Below, piece by piece: positions 33,623 to 48,167 of a stretch of DNA of 64,000 nt (positions are counted from its first letter, which is position 1; every line of letters begins with the position of its first letter). The notes beneath the pieces were generated by a model. The model was not told where the DNA came from and made no database searches. It worked only from the letters and a program-made list of their open reading frames with translations. The stretch covers positions 930,001 through 994,000 of the forward strand of contig NZ_VWOJ01000001.1 in NCBI RefSeq assembly GCF_008630495.1, written 5' to 3'. The DNA is from Alkalicaulis satelles (GTDB lineage: Bacteria > Pseudomonadota > Alphaproteobacteria > Caulobacterales > Maricaulaceae). The position numbers and the translations under genes are program-made.

Positions 33623-34741
33623 ATGTCCGCCGCTCGCGACATCCTGCTGGCCGCAGTGGTCGCTGTCGCGGGCGGCGCGGCGCTCTATTACTTTCCGCTG
33701 GACGATGTTCCGGCGCCCCCCGGGCCGGTCGAGCCCGGGCCTGGGGAGCCTGATCCCGATCCGGGGCCGGAGCCTGATCCCGGCCCTGATCCGGAGCCAG
33801 AGCCAGAGACGGAGCCAGAGCCGGATCCTGATCCGGAGCCGGATCCCGATCCCTCGCCCGGTCCGCTGGACCCGGACGGCGCGGTGTTCGCCTGGGCGCC
33901 GCCCGGCGAGCTGCCCACCTTCGACTACCGCAATAATGTGGACGTGGCCAACCGCTCCGGCTTTGGCTGGGACGGTTCGGATGAGCTGTCGCGCAATTAT
34001 GTGTTCGCCCCGGACCTGACCTGGCCGCTGGACGGGCCGGGCTACGCCAACACCCAGGTCTACCGCCCCGGCGGGCAATTTTCCGGCGTGGGCGGTCCGG
34101 GCGGATCGGGCGAATGCGACGCGCGCAATTTCGATTACCCGTGGGAAGACAATTTCTGCGAACGGCGCGGCACGTCCACCCGCAATCCCTTCTGCCCCAA
34201 TAACGCCCACGGCCACCATGTGGGCCAGGATATCAGGCCGCAGCAATGCACCCGCAACTTCCCGCTGGAAGAGCGCCAGATGGCGGTGGCGGTGACCGAC
34301 GGCTATATCTCTTCGGTCGCCTCCATGACCGTGCGCCTGCGCGGCGATGACGGGCGGACCTACTGGTATATGCATCTGGAGCACTGGGATAATTGCGACC
34401 TGTCGCAGCTGACCACCCCGGCCCAGTGCAGCGCCGCCAACCTGCCCAGCGTGTGCGAACGCTCCGCGCTGGAAGTGGAGGCCGGACAGGACGTGCGCGC
34501 AGGCGATCCCATCGGGCGGGTATCCAACTGGTTCGGCATTGGCTGGAGCAATGGCGCCTGCCGGCGGTCCCTGACCACCGACCATCTGCATTTCGAGATC
34601 CGCGACACCATCGATCCCGACGGCAGCTTCACCGCCAGCGCGGTGCCGGTGCCGCCCTATTCCTCGCTGGTGACGGCCTATCTGCGATTTATCGGCGCCG
34701 ACGAAGCCGACTTCCCCGACTGGGAAGAAGCGGAGTTCTGA
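33623..34741 (+). CDS. Membrane-anchored M23 (LytM-like) peptidase-domain protein with Pro/Glu linker
   Basis: This 372-residue protein has an N-terminal membrane helix (residues 6-24), a long Pro/Glu/Asp linker (about 28-85) and a C-terminal M23-type metallopeptidase domain. Zinc-ligand-like residues are in GHHVGQDIRP (HxxxD pattern, about residue 194), YWYMHLEHW, and TTDHLHFEIRD (HxH, about residue 322). Several cysteines in the domain (ECDARNF, NFCERRG, FCPNNAH, QQCTRNF, NCDLSQL, PAQCSAA, SVCERSA, GACRRSL) suggest disulfides and periplasmic location. Such proteins cut peptidoglycan cross-links or activate amidases; the position beside the dcw cluster suits a cell-wall role. Whether it is active or a LytM-type activator cannot be told. 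Confidence 0.82.
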   Translation: MSAARDILLAAVVAVAGGAALYYFPLDDVPAPPGPVEPGPGEPDPDPGPEPDPGPDPEPEPETEPEPDPDPEPDPDPSPGPLDPDGAVFAWAPPGELPTFDYRNNVDVANRSGFGWDGSDELSRNYVFAPDLTWPLDGPGYANTQVYRPGGQFSGVGGPGGSGECDARNFDYPWEDNFCERRGTSTRNPFCPNNAHGHHVGQDIRPQQCTRNFPLEERQMAVAVTDGYISSVASMTVRLRGDDGRTYWYMHLEHWDNCDLSQLTTPAQCSAANLPSVCERSALEVEAGQDVRAGDPIGRVSNWFGIGWSNGACRRSLTTDHLHFEIRDTIDPDGSFTASAVPVPPYSSLVTAYLRFIGADEADFPDWEEAEF

Positions 34742-38294: not shown

Positions 38295-39205
38295 GCGGGC
38301 TCTCCCACGCGGCGGACTTCCCAGTCCAGATCGACGCCGAACTGCGCCTTCACCTGCGCGCGCACGGTCTCGCCCAGGGTTTCGAGATCGCTGGCGCTCG
38401 CCGTGCCGTCATTGATCAGGAAATTGCAGTGCTGCTCGGAAAAGCGCGCCCCGCCCACCGGCTTGCCGCGCCAGCCCGCCGCATCGATCAGCTGCCAGGC
38501 CGAGCGCCCGCCCGACAGCGCCGGATCGGGGTTCTTGAAGGTGGAGCCGGAGGTTTTCTCCCGGATCGGCTGGGTGCTTTCGCGCCGCGCCGTGATCGCG
38601 TCCATGCGCTGCGTGATGGCGGCCGGATCATCGGCGCGGCCTTCAAACACCGCCTCGACGAAAATCCAGTCGGCTGGCGCGTCGCTGTGGCGATAGGCGT
38701 AGCCCATCTCGTCGAGCGGCACGATCAGCCGGCGCCCGCGCCGGTCCAGCGCCACGGCCTCCACCAGCACATCGCGCGTCTCGGCGTTATAGCAGCCCGC
38801 ATTCATGCGCAGCGCCCCGCCGATCGTGCCGGGCACGCCGACGAAAAACTCAAGCCCCGCAATGCCCGCCTTCGCCGCGGCTTTGGCGACCGTCTTGTCC
38901 AGCGCCGCCGTCCCGGCGCGCAGGCGCAAGCCCTCGGCCTGAATGCGTCCGAAGGCCGGGGTGAGCTTCACCGTCACCCCCTTCAGCCCGCCATCACGCA
39001 CCAGCGTATTGGACCCCGCGCCGAGCACATGGACGGGAATATCGCGCGGCGTCTCGGCCAGGAAGCGCGCCAGATCGGCCTCGTCGGCGGGCAGGAACAG
39101 CACTTGCGCCGGTCCGCCCACGCGCAGCCAGGTGATGCCGGAGAGCGGCGCGCCTTCAATCAGCTTGCCGCGCACGGGCGGGAGGCGGGTGAGGAGCGCG
39201 CTCAC
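38291..39205 (-). CDS. murB: UDP-N-acetylenolpyruvoylglucosamine reductase
   Basis: MurB (304 residues) is the FAD-dependent enzyme that reduces UDP-GlcNAc-enolpyruvate to UDP-MurNAc. Motifs are [46 protein letters not shown], the serine acid donor in TSGSTFKNP, and [15 protein letters not shown]. The length and order indicate the short (type II-like) MurB found in alphaproteobacteria. It overlaps murC and ddlB by four bases on either side, so translation is coupled along the operon. Confidence 0.96.
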
Positions 39206-40611
39206 CCCGCCGCCTCCAGCCGCTCCGGCAGTTCCGCCGCCCAGGCGGTGATGTCGCCGGCGCCCAGGCAGACCACCAGATCGCCAGACGCGATGCGGGA
39301 TTTGAGATCGGCGGCCAGCGTCTCGCGCGTGGTGGCCGACGCGTCGCGGTGGGAGTGGCGTTGCAGGCCGGCCACCAGCCCGTCCTGATCAGCGCCCTCG
39401 ATGGGCGTTTCGCCGGCTGAATAGACCGGCGCCACCAGCACGCTGTCGGCGTCATTGAAGCAGGTGCAGAACTCTTCAAACAGGTCATGCAGGCGCGTGT
39501 AGCGGTGGGGCTGGACCACGGCGACCACCCGGCCCTCGCCGGCGCGCTGGCGCGCGGCTTTGAGCACCGCGGCGATCTCCACCGGGTGATGGCCGTAATC
39601 ATCAATGACGGCGACGCCGCCCGCCTCGCCCACCAGGGTGAAGCGGCGCTTGACGCCCTTGAACCCGGCCAGGCCTTTTCGCGCCTCGGCCTCCTGCCCG
39701 CCCAGCGCCTGCACCACCGCCAGCGCCGCGGCGGCGTTGAGCACGTTGTGCTCGCCGGTCATGGGCAGGGCGAGGCCCGCCCAGGTGGCCGGTTCGGCGC
39801 CGCGCGCCTGGAAGCGCAGGTCAAAGCGCGCGCCCGTGGTGTCGCCGTCATGATTGACGATGCGCACATCGGCCTGGGGCGAGAAGCCATAGGTGATCAC
39901 CCGGCGGTCCTCGATGCGCGCGGCCAGCGCCTGCACCTCGGGGTGATCCACGCACAGCACGGCGAAGCCGTAGAAGGGCAGGTTCTCGACGAATTGCCGG
40001 AAGGCTTCGCGCAGCGCGTCGAAATCGCCGTAATGCTCCATGTGTTCGGGATCGATATTGGTGATGATCCCCACCGTGCCGCGCAGTTTCAGGAAGGAGC
40101 CGTCGCTCTCGTCGGCCTCCACCACCATCCAGCCGCCCTCGCCCATCTTGGCGTTGGAGCCATAGGCCGAAATGATGCCGCCATTGATCACGGTGGGATC
40201 AAACCCGGCGGCATCCATCAGGGCGGCCACCAGCGAGGTGGTGGTGGTCTTGCCATGGGTGCCGGCCACCGCGACCGAATGCTTCAGGCGCATCAGCTCG
40301 GCCAGCATTTCGGCGCGGCGCACCACCGGGATGCGCCGGGTGCGCGCCGCTGCAAGCTCGGGATTGTCGCGGCGCACGGCGCTGGACACCACCAGCGCGC
40401 CGGCCCCGTCGATATTGTCCGCCGCATGGCCGATATGGACCACCGCGCCCTTGTCGCGCAGGCGCTGGACATTGGGGCTGTCCTTGATGTCCGAGCCGGT
40501 GACCTGATAGCCCAGATTGAGCATCACCTCGGCGATGCCGCTCATGCCGATCCCGCCAATCCCGACGAAATGCACAGGCGAAGCGGCGGCGGCGAGGTCT
40601 CTGGGCGGCAT
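39202..40611 (-). CDS. murC: UDP-N-acetylmuramate--L-alanine ligase
   Basis: MurC (469 residues) adds L-alanine to UDP-MurNAc. It has the N-terminal Rossmann motif [16 protein letters not shown], an intact P-loop [15 protein letters not shown] (about residues 116-130), the EADESDGSF acidic loop, [12 protein letters not shown] and the C-terminal [10 protein letters not shown]. All Mur-ligase catalytic residues are therefore present, which contrasts sharply with the murD homologue upstream in the same operon. It starts five bases after murG and overlaps murB. Confidence 0.97.
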
Positions 40612-40616
40612 GAAGG

Positions 40617-41705
40617 CTACTCCGCGGCGCGTTCGATCAGATCAGCCAGCGCCTCATGCGCATCGGGGCGGCCGGCGGCGCGGGCCGCCGCCGCGCGCGC
40701 GGCGAGAGCTTCGCCGTCCGCCAGCAGCGTTTCAAGGCGCTGTGACAGGCTTTGTGCGGTGACATCGCGCTCGGCCATCACCTCCGCCCCGCCCGCATGG
40801 GCGAGGCCTTGGGCATTGGCGCTCTGGTGATCGTCCATGGCGATGGCCAGCGGCACAAGGATGGCCGGGCGCCCGATGGCCGCCAGCTCCGACACTGACG
40901 AGGCCCCCGCGCGCGAGATCACCAGATGGGCCTGCCCGTAGCGCGCGCCCATATCGTCAAAGAAGGGCGAGAGCTCGGCCTTGACGCCCGCCGCGTCATA
41001 AACGGCGCGGGCGCGCTCCAGGCTGTCCTGGCGGGTCTGCTGCACGACGCTGAGACGCTGGCGCAAGGCTTCGGGCAGCAGCGCGACCGCCTCGGGCACG
41101 GTTTCAGACAATATGCGCGCGCCCAGACTGCCGCCCAGCACCAGAAGCCGGATCTCGCCATCACGCGCCGGGGCGGCATAGGGGGCCGCACGTGCGCTGA
41201 GCACGTGGGCGCGCACCGGATTGCCGGTGACGGCGTGACGGGCGCGGGCGGGCAGGCGGTCGAGGCGGTCAAAGCCCGACGCGACGGAGTGGGCGGACCC
41301 GGCGAACAGGCGGTTGACCCGGCCCAGCACCGCATTCTGCTCATGGATCACAAACGGCAGGCCCGACAGGCGCGCCGCGGCCAGCAGCGGAAAGGCCGGA
41401 TAGCCGCCAAACCCCGCCGCCACATCCGCACCGAAGGCCTTGAGCAGCTTGCGCGTCGCCATCATCCCGGAGGCCAGATCGGCCAGCGCGCCGGGCAGGC
41501 GCAGCGGATTGGACTGGAACGGGCTGGAGGCGCGGATGACGCTCACCCCCTCGCCGGGGAAATCGCCGGTGTGGCGCGCCCCGCGCGCATCGGTGATCAG
41601 GGCCACCTGCCAGCCGCGCGCGATCAGGGTTTCGGCGGCCGCGCGCGCCGGAAAGATATGCCCGCCCGTGCCGCCTGCGGCGATGATCAGCCTGCGCGCG
41701 CTCAC
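40617..41705 (-). CDS. murG: UDP-GlcNAc:lipid I N-acetylglucosaminyltransferase MurG
   Basis: MurG (362 residues) is a peripheral GT-B enzyme that converts lipid I to lipid II on the inner face of the membrane. Motifs are [15 protein letters not shown] (G loop 1), [39 protein letters not shown] (G loop 3), and the UDP-binding [24 protein letters not shown] with DDHQSANA. The gene overlaps ftsW by four bases and ends five bases before murC. Confidence 0.97.
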
Positions 41706-42832
41706 GCCCCGGCTCCCGCCGCGCGCAGGCGGCGCGGCTGATAGGCGCCCGGCCTGTGCCGGGTCAGCGCCAGCAGGAGCCCGGCCGAAAACGCCAACGC
41801 CAGCATGGACGACCCGCCATAGGACAGGAAGGGCAGCGTCATGCCGGTGGACGGGGCCAGATCGAGATTGACCGCGATATTGACCAGCGCCTGAAGCGCG
41901 AACAGCAGGGCCAGGCCCGCCGTGGCCAGCCGCGCGAACGGATCATTGAGCCGCAGGGCCAGCATCCAGGCGCGCGCGAACAGCAGCGCATAGAGCGCGA
42001 TGATCATCAGCATGGCCAGCGCGCCGAACTCCTCGCCCGCCACCGCGAAGATATAGTCGTTATGGGCTTCGGGCAGGATGTGCTTGATGCGCCCCTCGCC
42101 CGGCCCGGCGCCCCACAGCCCGCCATGGCCGATGGCTTCCAGTGCGATATCGGTCTGGCTGCGCGCGCCCGAACCGCCGGAGAGGAAGTCCTGCACCCGG
42201 CGCTGGATATAGGGCACCAGATGCATCGCCGCGGCCCCGCCCGCCGCAATGGCGGCGCCCAGCCCGGCGGTCCAGCGCCAGGACAGGCCGGCGATCCATA
42301 GCAGGGCTGCGAAGATGAGGGTGATCAGCGCGGTCTGGCCCAGATCGGGCTGGCGCGTCAGCAAGAGCACGGCCAGCGCGTAGATCACCAGCGCCATCAG
42401 CCGGCCCGGCGCGGGCGCGCCGCGGTCTTCCTCGGTGAACAGCCAGGCGGTGATGATGATGAAGGCCGGCTTGAAGAACTCGCTGGGCTGCAGGGAGAAA
42501 CCGCCCAGATGCAGCCAGCGCGTGGAGCCGTTGACGTTCGCGCCGAAGACCAGAACCGCCGCCATCAGCACCAGCGATCCCAGCAGCATCAGTCCGGACA
42601 TGCGCCGCACGCCGGTGAGCGAAAAGCTTGCGCTGATCATCAGGATGATCAGGCCCGCAGCCATGAACATGGCCTGGCGGCGCACATAGAAGAAGGGATC
42701 GGCGGCGCTGGACACGGCGGGGCTGGCGGCGAACGACAGCACAAGGCCCATGCCCAGGAGGAAGATGATCATCCCCAGCAAGGGCTTGTCCAGCTCGCGC
42801 AGGACCCGCGAATAGCGCCGGGCGGGGCTCAT
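41702..42832 (-). CDS. ftsW: Septal peptidoglycan polymerase FtsW (SEDS)
   Basis: FtsW (376 residues) is the SEDS-family glycan polymerase that works with FtsI at the septum. It has about ten membrane helices. STRWLHLGGFSLQPSEFFKPA, LLLTRQPDLGQTALI (with the catalytic aspartate), GHGGLWGAGPGEGRIKHILPEAHNDYIFAV and TMTLPFLSYGGSSML-type segments match the family. The ATG overlaps the neighbouring murD homologue by four bases and its stop overlaps murG. It is full length and all conserved residues are present. Confidence 0.96.
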   Translation of the reverse strand: MSPARRYSRVLRELDKPLLGMIIFLLGMGLVLSFAASPAVSSAADPFFYVRRQAMFMAAGLIILMISASFSLTGVRRMSGLMLLGSLVLMAAVLVFGANVNGSTRWLHLGGFSLQPSEFFKPAFIIITAWLFTEEDRGAPAPGRLMALVIYALAVLLLTRQPDLGQTALITLIFAALLWIAGLSWRWTAGLGAAIAAGGAAAMHLVPYIQRRVQDFLSGGSGARSQTDIALEAIGHGGLWGAGPGEGRIKHILPEAHNDYIFAVAGEEFGALAMLMIIALYALLFARAWMLALRLNDPFARLATAGLALLFALQALVNIAVNLDLAPSTGMTLPFLSYGGSSMLALAFSAGLLLALTRHRPGAYQPRRLRAAGAGA

Positions 42833-44181
42833 GCCGCATCTCCCTGTTTCAATCGGCCGGTCAGCCGGTCCAGCGCCGCGGCCAGGGCGGCGCTGTCCTC
42901 ATGGACCTGCTCTGGACCGCGCCGGGTTGACGGAGCGTATAGAAGCTGCGCCCGCCCGCCGCTGAGCATGGCGCCGTGCAGCGCACGCGCCAGCGCCTCG
43001 TCCAGCCCCGCCGCCGTGCGGCAGGCCAGGCGCTTGCCCAGCTTGCGCACCAGGCGCGGGTCCGGGCCGGTGAGGATCAGCCGCTGCAAATGATCCGGCA
43101 GGGGGCTGGCGAACGCCGCCGCGTCGAGGCCGGGATCGGCGATCCACCAGACCGGAAGGTCCGGGGTTATGGCGTCAAGCGTTTCGCGCGGGTCTTGCGC
43201 GGCGCTGTGATCGATGATCTCCACCGCGCCCAGCTGGAAGACCGGCGCGCGCAGACCCTGAGCGCCGGGAAAGCTGGCGAGCGCCGCCTCCATCGCATCT
43301 GCGTCCGCGCCCAGCGCCAGAGCCAGCGCCGCCGCGCCGGCGATCAGTCCGGGCGCCAGCCCCTCAAGCCCCGCCCCGCTGACGCGCCAGTGGCGGCCCG
43401 CGCCATGAGTGCGCGCGTCATGCAGCCGTCCGCCGATCAGATAGACGCCCTCGCCCAGCGCCATGCGGCCGGAACAGGCGATCAGGCGCTCGCGGTCCAT
43501 CCCGCCCTTGCGCAGCGCCGCCAGCCGCGCCCCGGCGCCGGGCGCATCCATGTCGATCAGGGCCGGGCCGCTGCAGCGCGCGGCGAGGCTTGCGAGCTCC
43601 TCGGCGCTGACATCTGCGTCCGGTCCCAGCCACAACGCATGCGGCGCCAGGTCCGGCGCGCGGGCGCGCTCGGCGGCGCTGGCGGTGATCAGGGAGAGGC
43701 TGCCCGCGCGCAAGGGCGGGGCGTCAAACAAGGCGCGGCCCCAGCCGCCGGGGCGCGCATCAAGCCCGCTGCATTGCATAATCCAGCCCGCCAGCGCCAT
43801 CGCGCCATGGGCTTGCGGCCCGCCCGGGGCCAGCGCCAGGCGCGCGCCGGGCCGGGCGGCCAGGGCGTGTGCGAACAGGGCCAGCTCGGTGGTCACCGGC
43901 GCAGCGGCGGCGCTTGCCAGCGCCAGCAGGCCGTTATCATCGGGCCCATCCAGCCGGGCGGCGTCATCAATGGCCAGCACCGCCAGATCGCCCCAGTCGC
44001 GCGCGGTGGGATGTTCGATCACCACGCCTTCGCGCGCCGCTCTCTTGCGCCGGGCCTCATCCTCGTCCCAACCGGTGACCGGCGTTCCACCCGCGGCCAG
44101 CGCGCGGGCCATGGCGCGTCCGCGCGCGCCCAGGCCCAGGATGCAGGCCCGTCCTGCAGCGCTGGCGCGGACGGAGATCAC
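42829..44181 (-). CDS. murD: MurD homologue lacking ATP-binding and catalytic motifs (probable pseudoenzyme)
   Basis: By position (between mraY and ftsW) and overall plan this is MurD, the ligase that adds D-glutamate, and its 450 residues are of normal length. The N-terminal Rossmann region ACILGLGARGRAMARALAAGG and the late ALASFPGAQGLR...VFQLGAVEIIDHSAAQDP align with MurD. But the P-loop (GTNGKT in the family) is replaced by APGGPQAHGAM at about residues 118-128; there is no GKT or GKS anywhere. The ELSSYQLE-type loop, the LNxxPDHxDRH motif, the HNxxNxxAA motif and the DSKATN motif are also gone. The frame is uninterrupted and coupled to ftsW by a four-base overlap, so it is translated. 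It cannot work as a normal ligase; see findings. Confidence 0.85.
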   Translation of the reverse strand: MISVRASAAGRACILGLGARGRAMARALAAGGTPVTGWDEDEARRKRAAREGVVIEHPTARDWGDLAVLAIDDAARLDGPDDNGLLALASAAAAPVTTELALFAHALAARPGARLALAPGGPQAHGAMALAGWIMQCSGLDARPGGWGRALFDAPPLRAGSLSLITASAAERARAPDLAPHALWLGPDADVSAEELASLAARCSGPALIDMDAPGAGARLAALRKGGMDRERLIACSGRMALGEGVYLIGGRLHDARTHGAGRHWRVSGAGLEGLAPGLIAGAAALALALGADADAMEAALASFPGAQGLRAPVFQLGAVEIIDHSAAQDPRETLDAITPDLPVWWIADPGLDAAAFASPLPDHLQRLILTGPDPRLVRKLGKRLACRTAAGLDEALARALHGAMLSGGRAQLLYAPSTRRGPEQVHEDSAALAAALDRLTGRLKQGDAA

Positions 44182-44194
44182 GGGCCCTCACCCA

Positions 44195-45295
44195 TCAGCG
44201 CAGCTTCAGCGTCGACAGCCCGATCAGGGCCAGGACGAAGGCGATGATCCAGAAGCGCACCACGATGGTGGATTCCGACCAGCCCAGCTTTTCGAAATGG
44301 TGGTGGATGGGCGCCATCAGGAAGACGCGCTTGCCGGTCAGCTTGTAGCTGGCCACCTGCACCATCACCGAGACCGCCTCGAGCACGAACAGCCCGCCAA
44401 TGATGATCAGCACGATCTCGTGCTTGACCGCCACGGCGATGGCGCCGATGGCGCCGCCCAGCGACAGCGAGCCGGTATCGCCCATGAACACCATGGCCGG
44501 CGGCGCGTTGTACCAGAGAAAGCCCAGCCCGGCCCCGATCATCGCCCCGCAGATCACGGCCAGTTCGCCCGTGCCGGGGGTGAAGTTCAGGAACAGATAA
44601 TTGGAATAGACCGCCGAGCCGACCATGTAGGCGATGATCCCGAAGGCGCCCGCCGCGATCATCACCGGCACGATGGCCAGGCCGTCCAGCCCGTCGGTCA
44701 GATTGACCGCATTGGACGCGCCCACGATCACCAGCACCCCGAAGATGAAGAAGGCGTAGCTCAAGGGGATCAGCACGTCCTTGAAAAAGGGCACGGCCAC
44801 CGAGGTGGCGAAATTCTCCGGCGTGTTGGGCGCGCCATCGAGCAGCTGCACCATCCAGATCACCGCCGCCAGCGCCACCGCGCCCTGCAAGGCCAGCTTG
44901 GCCTTGCCCGACAGGCCGTGATGGGAGCGCTTGGTGACCTTGCGCCAGTCATCGATGAAGCCGATGCCGCCAAAGGCAGCGGTCACGAACATCACCACCC
45001 ACAGATAGGGATTGGACAGATCGCCCCAGATCAGCGTGCCCGCCAGAATGCCGAACAGGATGATGAACCCGCCCATGGTCGGCGTGCCGGCCTTGGAGAT
45101 GACATGGCTTTCCGGCCCGTCGGTGCGGATGGGCTGGGAGCCCTGTTTGCGCAGCCATCCGATGAAGGGCATGCCCGCCACCAGGGCGATCACGAACGCG
45201 GTCATGAGCGCGGCGCCGGTGCGGAAGGTGAGATAGTTCAACAGGTTGAACAGGGCGAAATCATCAGCGAAAGGAGTCAGGAGCAAATACAGCAT
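44195..45295 (-). CDS. mraY: Phospho-MurNAc-pentapeptide transferase MraY
   Basis: MraY (366 residues) is the ten-helix membrane enzyme that makes lipid I from UDP-MurNAc-pentapeptide and undecaprenyl phosphate. It has the family motifs [31 protein letters not shown] with the metal-binding aspartates, [14 protein letters not shown], and the C-terminal [23 protein letters not shown]. All catalytic aspartates and the HHH motif are present. It lies eight bases after murF and thirteen before the murD homologue. Confidence 0.97.
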
Positions 45296-45303
45296 GGCGC
45301 GAT

Positions 45304-46713
45304 TCAGGCCTCGTTTGGCGCGGCGGCGCGGACAGATTTCACGGCGGCGGCGATCTTGTGAACGCCAGATGCGTTGGAGCCCTTGATCAGCACGATATCA
45401 CCCTGGCGCGCCAGAGCCTGGAACTGTTCGAGCCCGGAATTCCAGTCCTTTGCGCTGACGCCTTCCATTCCGGCGGGCAAGGCCTTGATCAGGGCGCTCA
45501 TGCCCGCCCCCACCCCGATCACCAGCTCAACGCCCGCTTCCGCCAGCGGCGCGGCCAGTGCGGCGTGCAGGGCCGGCGCGTCCGGTCCCAGCTCCAGCAT
45601 CTCGCCCAGCACCGCCACCCGGCGCGCGCCCGCATCCGGGGTGCGCTGGGCCAGTGCGGACAGGGCCGCGCGCATGGAGGCGGGGTTGGCGTTATAGCTG
45701 TCATCAATGAGGGTGACGGCGCGCCCGCTGCTGAGCGTGACATCAAAGCGCGCCCCGCGCCCGGCCCCCGGCGTCAGGCCCGCCAGGGTCTCCAGCGCCA
45801 GCTCGGGATCCACCCCGGCGGCCAGCGAGGCGGCCACCGCGCCCGCCGCGTTCACCGCCTGATGGGCGCCGGGCAAGGCCAGGCGGAAGTGGCGCAGCCG
45901 GCCCATCACATCCATCTCGCCCGCCCCGCCCTCGCCATCGGGGGCGTAGCGCAGCACCCGCACAGCGGCGGCGCGCGCAAAGCCGAAATCGAACAGGAAG
46001 CCCGCCCGCGAGCGCATGGCGGCGTCGCGCAGGCGCGGGGCGTAGTCATCATCGGCGGGGATCACCGCCACGCCGTCCACTTCCAGCCCGGTGAAAATCT
46101 CCGCCTTGGCCTCTGCGATGGCCTCCATGGAGCCGAGATTTTCCAGATGGGCCGGGGCGATTCTGGTGATCAGCGCCACATGGGGGCGCACCTGGGCGGT
46201 CAGCGCAGCGATCTCGCCGGCATGGTTCATGCCCATTTCGAACACCGCGCCGCGCGTGTCGGCCGGCATGCGCGCCAGGGTCAGCGGCACGCCCCAGTGA
46301 TTATTATAGCTGGCCACGCTCCAGTGAGCGGGACCGTTCGCGCGCAATATGGCCGCCAGGGCTTCCTTCACGCTGGTCTTGCCCACCGAGCCGGTGACGC
46401 CGATGCGGATGGCCGGGCTGCGCAGGCGCGCGCCCTGACCCAGAGCACGCAGCGCGTCGAGGGTGTCATCCACCACCAGGCGCGGGCCCTCGCAACAGGC
46501 CGGATCAGAGACCAGCACCGCAGCGGCGCCCTTGTCCAGCGCGGCGCGGGCGAAGTCATGGCCGTCGCGCGCGTCTTTGAGCGCCACGAACAGATCGCCC
46601 GGCTGCAGCGTGCGGGTGTCGATGGAGACGCCTGTAGCGCTCCAGCCGCCATCGGTCAGGCGCCCGCCAGCGGCCAGGGCGGCGTCAGCAGCGGTCCAAA
46701 GCGGCGCGGTCAT
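45304..46713 (-). CDS. murF: UDP-MurNAc-tripeptide--D-Ala-D-Ala ligase
   Basis: MurF (469 residues) joins D-Ala-D-Ala to the tripeptide precursor. The N-terminal [27 protein letters not shown] is the MurF substrate domain, the P-loop is [15 protein letters not shown] (about residues 107-121), then [14 protein letters not shown], and the C-terminal [15 protein letters not shown]. These are complete. It overlaps murE by four bases and is followed eight bases later by mraY. Confidence 0.97.
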
Positions 46714-48167
46714 GACCGGCCCTCCCTTTCCTTGAGCAGGCGCGCGACGATGGCCGGCTCGTCAAACGCGATCACCCGGCCGCCGACAATCTGGCCGGTC
46801 TCATGGCCCTTGCCCGCGATCAGCAGCGCATCACCGGGCGCCAGCATCTCAATGCCCGCCCGGATGGCGCTCTCGCGGTCGCCGATTTCAGTTGCGCCCG
46901 GACAGGCGGCCAGGATCGCCGCGCGGATGGAGGCCGGGTCCTCGCTGCGCGGATTATCGTCGGTGACAATGCACACATCAGCCAGGCGCGCCGCCACCGC
47001 GCCCATGGCCGGGCGCTTGGTGGGATCGCGGTCGCCCCCGGCGCCGAACACCAGGATGATGCGCCCGCGCGTATGGGGCCGCGCTGCGCGCAGGAGCTTG
47101 TCCAGACCGTCGGGCGTATGGGCGTAATCGAGCAGCACCGGCGCGCCGTCTTTCGTCATGCCCGCCGGCTGCATCCGCCCGGCCACGCCGGTCAGGCGCT
47201 CCAGCGCGGCGAACACGCTTTGCGCCTCCAGCCCCGACGCGATGGCCATGGCCGCCGCGCCCAGCGCATTGGCGGTCTGGAACTCGCCGATCAGAGGCAG
47301 CTCGATGAGCTGTTCGGCGCCGCGCCAGGCGAAGCGGATGATCTGGCTGGCCGGTTTCGGCGTGATCTCGCGCACGGCCAGATCCCGCCCGCGCCAGCCG
47401 ATGGAGATCACCTCCAGCCCGGCGGCCCTGGCGGTCTGCTCCACGCGCGCCGACCAGTCGGAATCCATGTTCACCACCGCGCTCGTCCCGGACGGCGCCA
47501 GGGCGGTGAACAGGCGCATTTTGGAGGCGAAATAGTCCTCGAAATCAGGGTGATAATCCAGGTGATCCTGGGTCAGATTGGTGAAGGCGCTGACCGAGAT
47601 GCGCGCCCCGTCCATGCGGTGCTGCTTGAGCCCGTGGGAAGAGGCCTCCATGGCCAGATGGGTCACGCCCTCGCCAGCCAGCGCGTCGAGCGCCTGGTGC
47701 AGGGCGATGGCGTCCGGCGTGGTGTAGCCCACCTCAGTGCGCCCGCTTGAACGCGTCACGCCCAGCGTGCCCAGCGCCGCCGCTTCCAGCCCCGCCCCCG
47801 CCCAGATCTGGCGCAGGAATTCCACGGTGGAGCTTTTGCCATTGGTGCCGGTCACCGCCGCGATATGGGCGGGCTGGCGCGGATAAAAGCGCGCAGCGAT
47901 GGCGGCCAGCGCCGCAGCGGGTTCGCGCGCCTCGACCACCGGCACGGGCGCGTCCGTCCCCGGCGGGGCGAGCACGCAGGCCGCGCCGTTATCGACCGCC
48001 ATGGCGATGAACTGGCGTCCGTCCGTGCGCACGCCCGGCAGGGCTGCGAACAGATCGCCGGGCTTCACCTTGCGGCTGTCCAGCGCCAGGCCCGACACGA
48101 CAAGTTCGCCCGCGCCGGGCGGCACTGCGAGCTCAGGGCCCAGGATATCGGCCAGACGCCGGCTCAT
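46710..48167 (-). CDS. murE: UDP-MurNAc-L-Ala-D-Glu--meso-diaminopimelate ligase
   Basis: MurE (485 residues) adds the third residue of the stem peptide. P-loop AAVTGTNGKSSTVEFL (about residues 104-119), EASSHGLKQHRMDG, FTNLTQDHLDYHPDFEDYFASK and LDYAHTPDGLDKLL are intact. The DNPRSEDP motif (about residues 405-412) is the meso-diaminopimelate-specific signature, so the cell has an ordinary Gram-negative DAP-type wall. It overlaps ftsI and murF by four bases each. Confidence 0.97.
   Translation of the reverse strand: MSRRLADILGPELAVPPGAGELVVSGLALDSRKVKPGDLFAALPGVRTDGRQFIAMAVDNGAACVLAPPGTDAPVPVVEAREPAAALAAIAARFYPRQPAHIAAVTGTNGKSSTVEFLRQIWAGAGLEAAALGTLGVTRSSGRTEVGYTTPDAIALHQALDALAGEGVTHLAMEASSHGLKQHRMDGARISVSAFTNLTQDHLDYHPDFEDYFASKMRLFTALAPSGTSAVVNMDSDWSARVEQTARAAGLEVISIGWRGRDLAVREITPKPASQIIRFAWRGAEQLIELPLIGEFQTANALGAAAMAIASGLEAQSVFAALERLTGVAGRMQPAGMTKDGAPVLLDYAHTPDGLDKLLRAARPHTRGRIILVFGAGGDRDPTKRPAMGAVAARLADVCIVTDDNPRSEDPASIRAAILAACPGATEIGDRESAIRAGIEMLAPGDALLIAGKGHETGQIVGGRVIAFDEPAIVARLLKEREGRS

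Follow-up and report, generated by a model that had tools for sequence, protein, structure and literature searches.

A MurD reading frame without ligase motifs is conserved in the division operon of Alkalicaulis satelles and its relatives

We have analyzed here a 64,000-nucleotide window of the Alkalicaulis satelles genome (contig NZ_VWOJ01000001.1, positions 930,001 to 994,000) in which the murD gene of the dcw operon (42829..44181, minus strand) encodes a 450-residue protein without the signature motifs of a MurD ligase. The same degenerate gene, hereafter the relic, is found at the same place, between mraY and ftsW, in 11 of the 15 genomes of the genus. The novelty lies in this dead MurD frame, conserved within a single genus as part of its division operon; the replacement of MurD by MurD2 and MurL is already known. 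On balance we favor the explanation that a MurD2–MurL replacement was followed by retention of the dead dcw MurD as a non-catalytic frame with a protein function. In the order of events that we infer, enzymes with the activities of MurD2 and MurL would have taken over D-glutamate incorporation and so made the dcw murD redundant, its loss being tolerable because the known pathway replaces it. The redundant gene would then have been stripped of its catalytic residues, the P-loop and the carbamate lysine among them, ahead of the divergence of the relic-bearing species sampled here, and would persist as a non-catalytic, presumably translated reading frame with the MurD fold, its 3' end holding the ftsW start codon and a probable ribosome-binding site. 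The selected trait would be a function of the protein, most likely packing or a partner role beside MraY, FtsW and MurG or other Mur enzymes.

Loss of the MurD active site

The relic starts with GTG and lies on the minus strand between mraY (44195..45295) and ftsW (41702..42832). An earlier note on this DNA had described an unbroken 450-residue frame overlapping ftsW by four bases, with GGPQAHGA in place of GTNGKT, no GK[ST] anywhere, and ELSSYQ, HNxxN, DSKATN and PDHxDR all absent. Each of these statements holds. GGPQAHGA starts at residue 120, a pattern search of the frame matched none of GK[ST], the P-loop, E[LA]SS, HxxN and DSxAT, and the PDHxDR-bearing segment is missing in alignment. The TIGR01087 MurD profile, which has a cut-off of 211.95 bits, scores the relic at 26.4, with its best stretch at residues 12–107. 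Among the Pfam matches listed, from which HMMER filters drop most of those above E 0.1, there are only sub-threshold Rossmann families, and neither Mur_ligase_M nor Mur_ligase_C. A Mur_ligase_M search of the whole genome finds five places, none of which is the dcw MurD.

All 11 relics of the genus are alike in this respect. The P-loop GTNGK[ST] is absent from every one, the column of its lysine being occupied by alanine throughout, and E170, H196, the carbamate lysine K210, R326 and D341 (G025 numbering) are each kept in 0 of 11. We take E170, H196, R326 and D341 to be catalytic or substrate residues of MurD. At invariant columns the relics share the changes K127→A, H325→G, N340→D and S436→A (same numbering); since the replacements are the same in all 11, the active site was probably lost a single time, before the relic-bearing species split. 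P73, N150 and H196, which are invariant in canonical MurD and of which the latter two presumably form part of the substrate site, are likewise kept in no relic, and because of this the role of UDP-precursor sensor suggested in the earlier note appears weakened. The carbamate lysine of E. coli MurD is described as Lys198 (PMC4816537).

The recurrence of the loss in 11 assemblies leads us to reject chance or an error of sequencing or assembly as its cause. The broader alternative, in which either such an artefact or a relocation of catalytic residues in a still active ligase hides the true enzyme, has no observation in its favor and is highly improbable, given also that none of the five canonical catalytic residues is kept in any relic and that an intact second MurD is present.

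Whilst the relic has none of the properties of a MurD ligase (P-loop, the five catalytic residues, a TIGR01087 score above cut-off), it retains those of the family, namely a predicted full-length MurD fold and the mraY–murD–ftsW operon place. In this place all 11 relics are orthologous with the murD of G023 (a genome from another genus of the family), whose protein also has the length and predicted fold of the relic and is 31% identical to it over residues 1–417. All 27 top-ranking fold matches of the predicted relic structure are MurD. These matches argue against a further rival, neofunctionalization of the relic, in which the protein would have taken on a new chemistry or ligand and might, for instance, bind a dinucleotide or a UDP-sugar by way of its surviving N-terminal Rossmann fold. 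Such a change of function is suggested by NAD-binding families that match residues 11–76 weakly and by the invariance of W38-D39 in all 11 relics; on the other hand, the GLGxxG loop is lost in the second relic group (where it reads, for example, RLTxxG) and canonical MurD has the same type of Rossmann start, and we regard this rival as improbable.

MurD2, MurL and the source of D-glutamate

The earlier note had expected a second D-glutamate ligase elsewhere in the genome. A second MurD-type ligase is indeed encoded elsewhere (profile match at C1:143391–144671), with 267 bits to TIGR01087 and intact GTKGKS, ELSSYQ and DDSLATT motifs, and a second MurD scores above the cut-off in 14 of the 15 genus genomes, G004 being the exception. 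The D-glutamate specificity, however, did not stand up: the second MurD is probably not a D-glutamate ligase, because the genome also encodes a MurL-type protein, no MurI was found, and the residues at the two specificity positions are Glu and Arg.

The MurL-type protein (447 residues, C1:186313–187656) matches NF041275, the model for MurL of Xanthomonadales, over its full length (E 2.2e-79) with 267 bits, below the clade-specific cut-off of 700, and has no Pfam family below E 0.1. Within a sample of 41 genomes, MurL relatives occur in 17: all 15 of the genus, G023, and G036, which belongs to a different family of the same order. The other 24 have none. MurI was detected in none of the 15 genus genomes, and neither was the wider racemase family PF01177, which is also missing from G023 and represented by one protein in G036. 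None of the 41 genomes has a D-amino-acid aminotransferase above the cut-off of 277.45 bits. The enzyme is matched at 247–277 bits in six genomes that lack a MurI match (G019, G020, G022, G028, G032 and G040), and at 149 bits in G016, which likewise lacks a MurI match and has one PF01177 protein. An alternative source of D-glutamate in the genus seems, from these searches, unlikely.

In Xanthomonas, MurD2 is described as attaching L-glutamate and MurL as then epimerizing the product (PMC8788868, PMC5808125), the L-glutamate preference of MurD2 being set by Glu197 and Arg358 (PMC8788868). The Xanthomonas pair is reported to let the E. coli D-glutamate auxotroph WM335 grow when no D-glutamate is supplied (PMC8788868). 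The equivalent of Arg358 is Arg in all 16 MurD2 proteins (14 from the genus, plus G023 and G036). The equivalent of Glu197 is Glu in seven, comprising the six of the clade to which the window belongs and G023, and Asp in the other nine. At the same two positions, five canonical MurDs have Asp and Lys throughout. Set beside the Xanthomonas pathway as outlined in these two sources, the A. satelles genome is alike in motifs, specificity residues, MurL profile match and the lack of a detectable MurI; it differs in that a dead murD persists, in that the MurL match stays under the cut-off of its model (267 against 700 bits) and in that murD2 and murL are not adjacent. The two genes are convergent neighbors in 8 of 14 genus genomes and lie apart in all six of the window's clade. 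In G023, murL, murD2 and a gene for a MurC/Mpl-like ligase are consecutive (L067:1669-5856). A tree of 21 MurL sequences places those of the genus in one clade (support 100) and groups G023 with G036, and for this reason we do not claim G023 as a direct ancestor-like stage. Devosia, Pelagibacterium and Parvularcula are the Alphaproteobacteria named for the pathway in what we cite of PMC8788868, to which range the present genus is an addition. Among the titles listed in searches of open-licence literature, none concerns a dead MurD of the dcw operon or the MurD2–MurL pair of Oceanicaulis.

Fates of murD in MurL-bearing genomes

The state of murD follows the presence of MurL in the 41 genomes, among which the gene order around murD was not read singly in the 24 that lack MurL. 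Of these 24, 23 have a MurD bearing the P-loop and ELSS motifs, and in G024 the frame is broken. At the mraY–ftsW position the 17 MurL-bearing genomes have one intact MurD (G023, with no MurI match), 12 degenerate ones (the 11 of the genus and G036) and, in four cases, none. The broken murD of G024, which has MurI and lacks MurL, consists of two frames separated by one TAA (C78:16420-17870), which may reflect misassembly, the genome being fragmented. In G036 a 439-residue MurD frame lies between mraY and ftsW (L074:5089-6405, minus strand). It keeps GSAGKST and has lost ELSSYQ, DHxxRH, HNxxN and DSKATN; the genome has MurL and MurD2 and no MurI match, so that this is apparently a second, independent case of dcw MurD degeneration.

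In a sample of 389 genomes drawn from the class, 16 match MurL, A. satelles included. G101 was excluded from the count, its match covering residues 211–390 only (E 6.9e-13) and a full MurD lying beside mraY. In all of the remaining 14 a MurD adjoins MurL, although that of G075 sits at the edge of a contig and has its frame divided between two. The mraY–murC gap between profile matches is 2256–2307 bases in 12 of the 14, with room for ftsW and murG only (three of the 12 were read gene by gene), and in G323 mraY and ftsW adjoin; G376, where no ftsW follows mraY on the contig, was not scored. There is thus no murD after mraY in 13 of the 14 other MurL-bearing alphaproteobacteria, which makes its absence the usual outcome once MurL is present and a retained dead copy unusual. 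Related genomes display murD in four states: intact only, intact beside MurD2–MurL, dead but kept, and gone. These states allow the question of a non-catalytic role for a Mur ligase to be asked, which is impossible where the gene is essential.

The four relic-less genomes of the genus (G004, G007, G008 and G014) have ftsW directly after mraY, and a protein search found no relic copy elsewhere in them, G004 being a small fragmented assembly. A tree of MraY, FtsW, MurG and MurC unites these four with support 100 and separates them from the 11 relic bearers, which form a clade with support 89. As four of 15 genomes are without the gene, it cannot be essential for the genus as a whole. A search of named genomes returned nine loci, of which seven are relics (four Oceanicaulis sp., two labeled Alphaproteobacteria bacterium and one Maricaulaceae bacterium) and two are canonical MurDs of Parvibaculum. 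The L124 locus is identical to the G009 relic and was not counted as an extra species.

Constraint on the relic and its possible roles

The earlier note had proposed checking whether the degenerate form is under purifying selection in sister species, and the six genomes of the window's clade (15 pairs) indicate that it is, with a ratio of nonsynonymous to synonymous substitution (dN/dS, omega) below 1 in every pair. A codon model gives the relic an omega of 0.21 (0.248 under a simpler codon model) and fits 238 log-likelihood units better than with omega fixed at 1; the corresponding omega is 0.046 for mraY, 0.060 for ftsW, 0.065 for murC, 0.084 for murG and 0.097 for murD2. Nei-Gojobori estimates are 0.24–0.55 for the relic in the 15 pairs (dS 0.38–0.72), 0.05–0.28 for the neighbors and 0.15–0.26 for murD2. 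Of seven pairs of motif-intact MurDs from other genera, the three with dS below 1 gave dN/dS values of 0.03–0.23. The second relic group, with an omega of 0.04–0.06 on a tree some 20 substitutions per codon long, is saturated and was left out. When neutral change was simulated under GC-rich mutation, dN/dS was never below 0.76 in 240 runs and 7 of 240 pairs were free of stop codons, which disfavors a neutral pseudogene. The dead gene is constrained, though more loosely than its neighbors, and most loosely in the lineage of the window itself.

Several observations weigh against a selected protein function or the pathway replacement behind it. The relic omega exceeds those of the neighbors by a factor of about 2–5; pairs with the window's own lineage (G000 and G006) are the most relaxed, at 0.46–0.55 in nine of nine against 0.24–0.29 in the other six; and the neutral simulation was run without insertions or deletions. 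The lack of the gene in four genus genomes means that any function it has is dispensable, and two canonical MurDs in the structure alignment may have steered the predicted fold. As to the replacement, the first specificity position is Asp, not Glu, in 8 of the 14 genus MurD2s, and D-amino-acid aminotransferase relatives in the genus reach 153.5 bits.

The raised omega values also suit the principal rival, to which we give perhaps one chance in three: that the protein is functionless, the frame staying open for ribosomes that reach ftsW through it and amino-acid change being limited by avoidance of misfolding. The ATGA that joins the relic stop codon to the ftsW start codon (42829..42832, minus strand) is present in 11 of 11 relics. 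A Shine-Dalgarno-like AGGGAG that would serve ftsW lies within the last codons of the A. satelles relic (42840..42845, minus strand), and GGAG or AGGG stands just before the ftsW start in 9 of the 11. The four relic-less genomes have an ftsW leader of its own, of 40–53 bases with AGGA in three and of 9 bases with GGGAG in G004. Many of the residues invariant in all relics are, moreover, Gly, Ala or Leu. Coupling to ftsW can explain the open frame but explains the amino-acid constraint less well: omega is well below 1 in all 15 pairs, and R5, R11 and S237-G238-R239 are relic-specific residues invariant in all 11. The lack of murD in 13 of 14 other MurL-bearing genomes further implies that ftsW needs no murD frame ahead of it.

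Retention of the relic for a protein function, the explanation that we prefer, leaves the nature of that function to be considered. The plastid RNA polymerase is said to have a MurE-like subunit, placing a Mur ligase fold in a larger assembly; that case concerns a eukaryotic plastid and a MurE-type protein. PDB entry 8w9z_N came up only as a sequence match of the second MurD. MurG has been described as a scaffold of the cytoplasmic Mur steps (PMC6420597), so that a partner role for the relic is plausible. A bolder form of this idea, that the dead MurD is a dedicated non-catalytic Mur or divisome member kept for its protein contacts and that a hidden structural role may exist in canonical MurD everywhere, we put forward only tentatively.

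The dcw operon around the relic is otherwise normal in appearance. MurC (39202..40611), MurE (46710..48167) and MurF (45304..46713), all encoded on the minus strand, retain the intact P-loops GTHGKT, GTNGKS and GSVGKT, respectively, as the earlier note had observed. Outside the operon, a 372-residue frame on the plus strand (33623-34741) has a long acidic repeat of Asp/Glu-Pro and, after it, a part that we take to resemble an M23-type peptidase.
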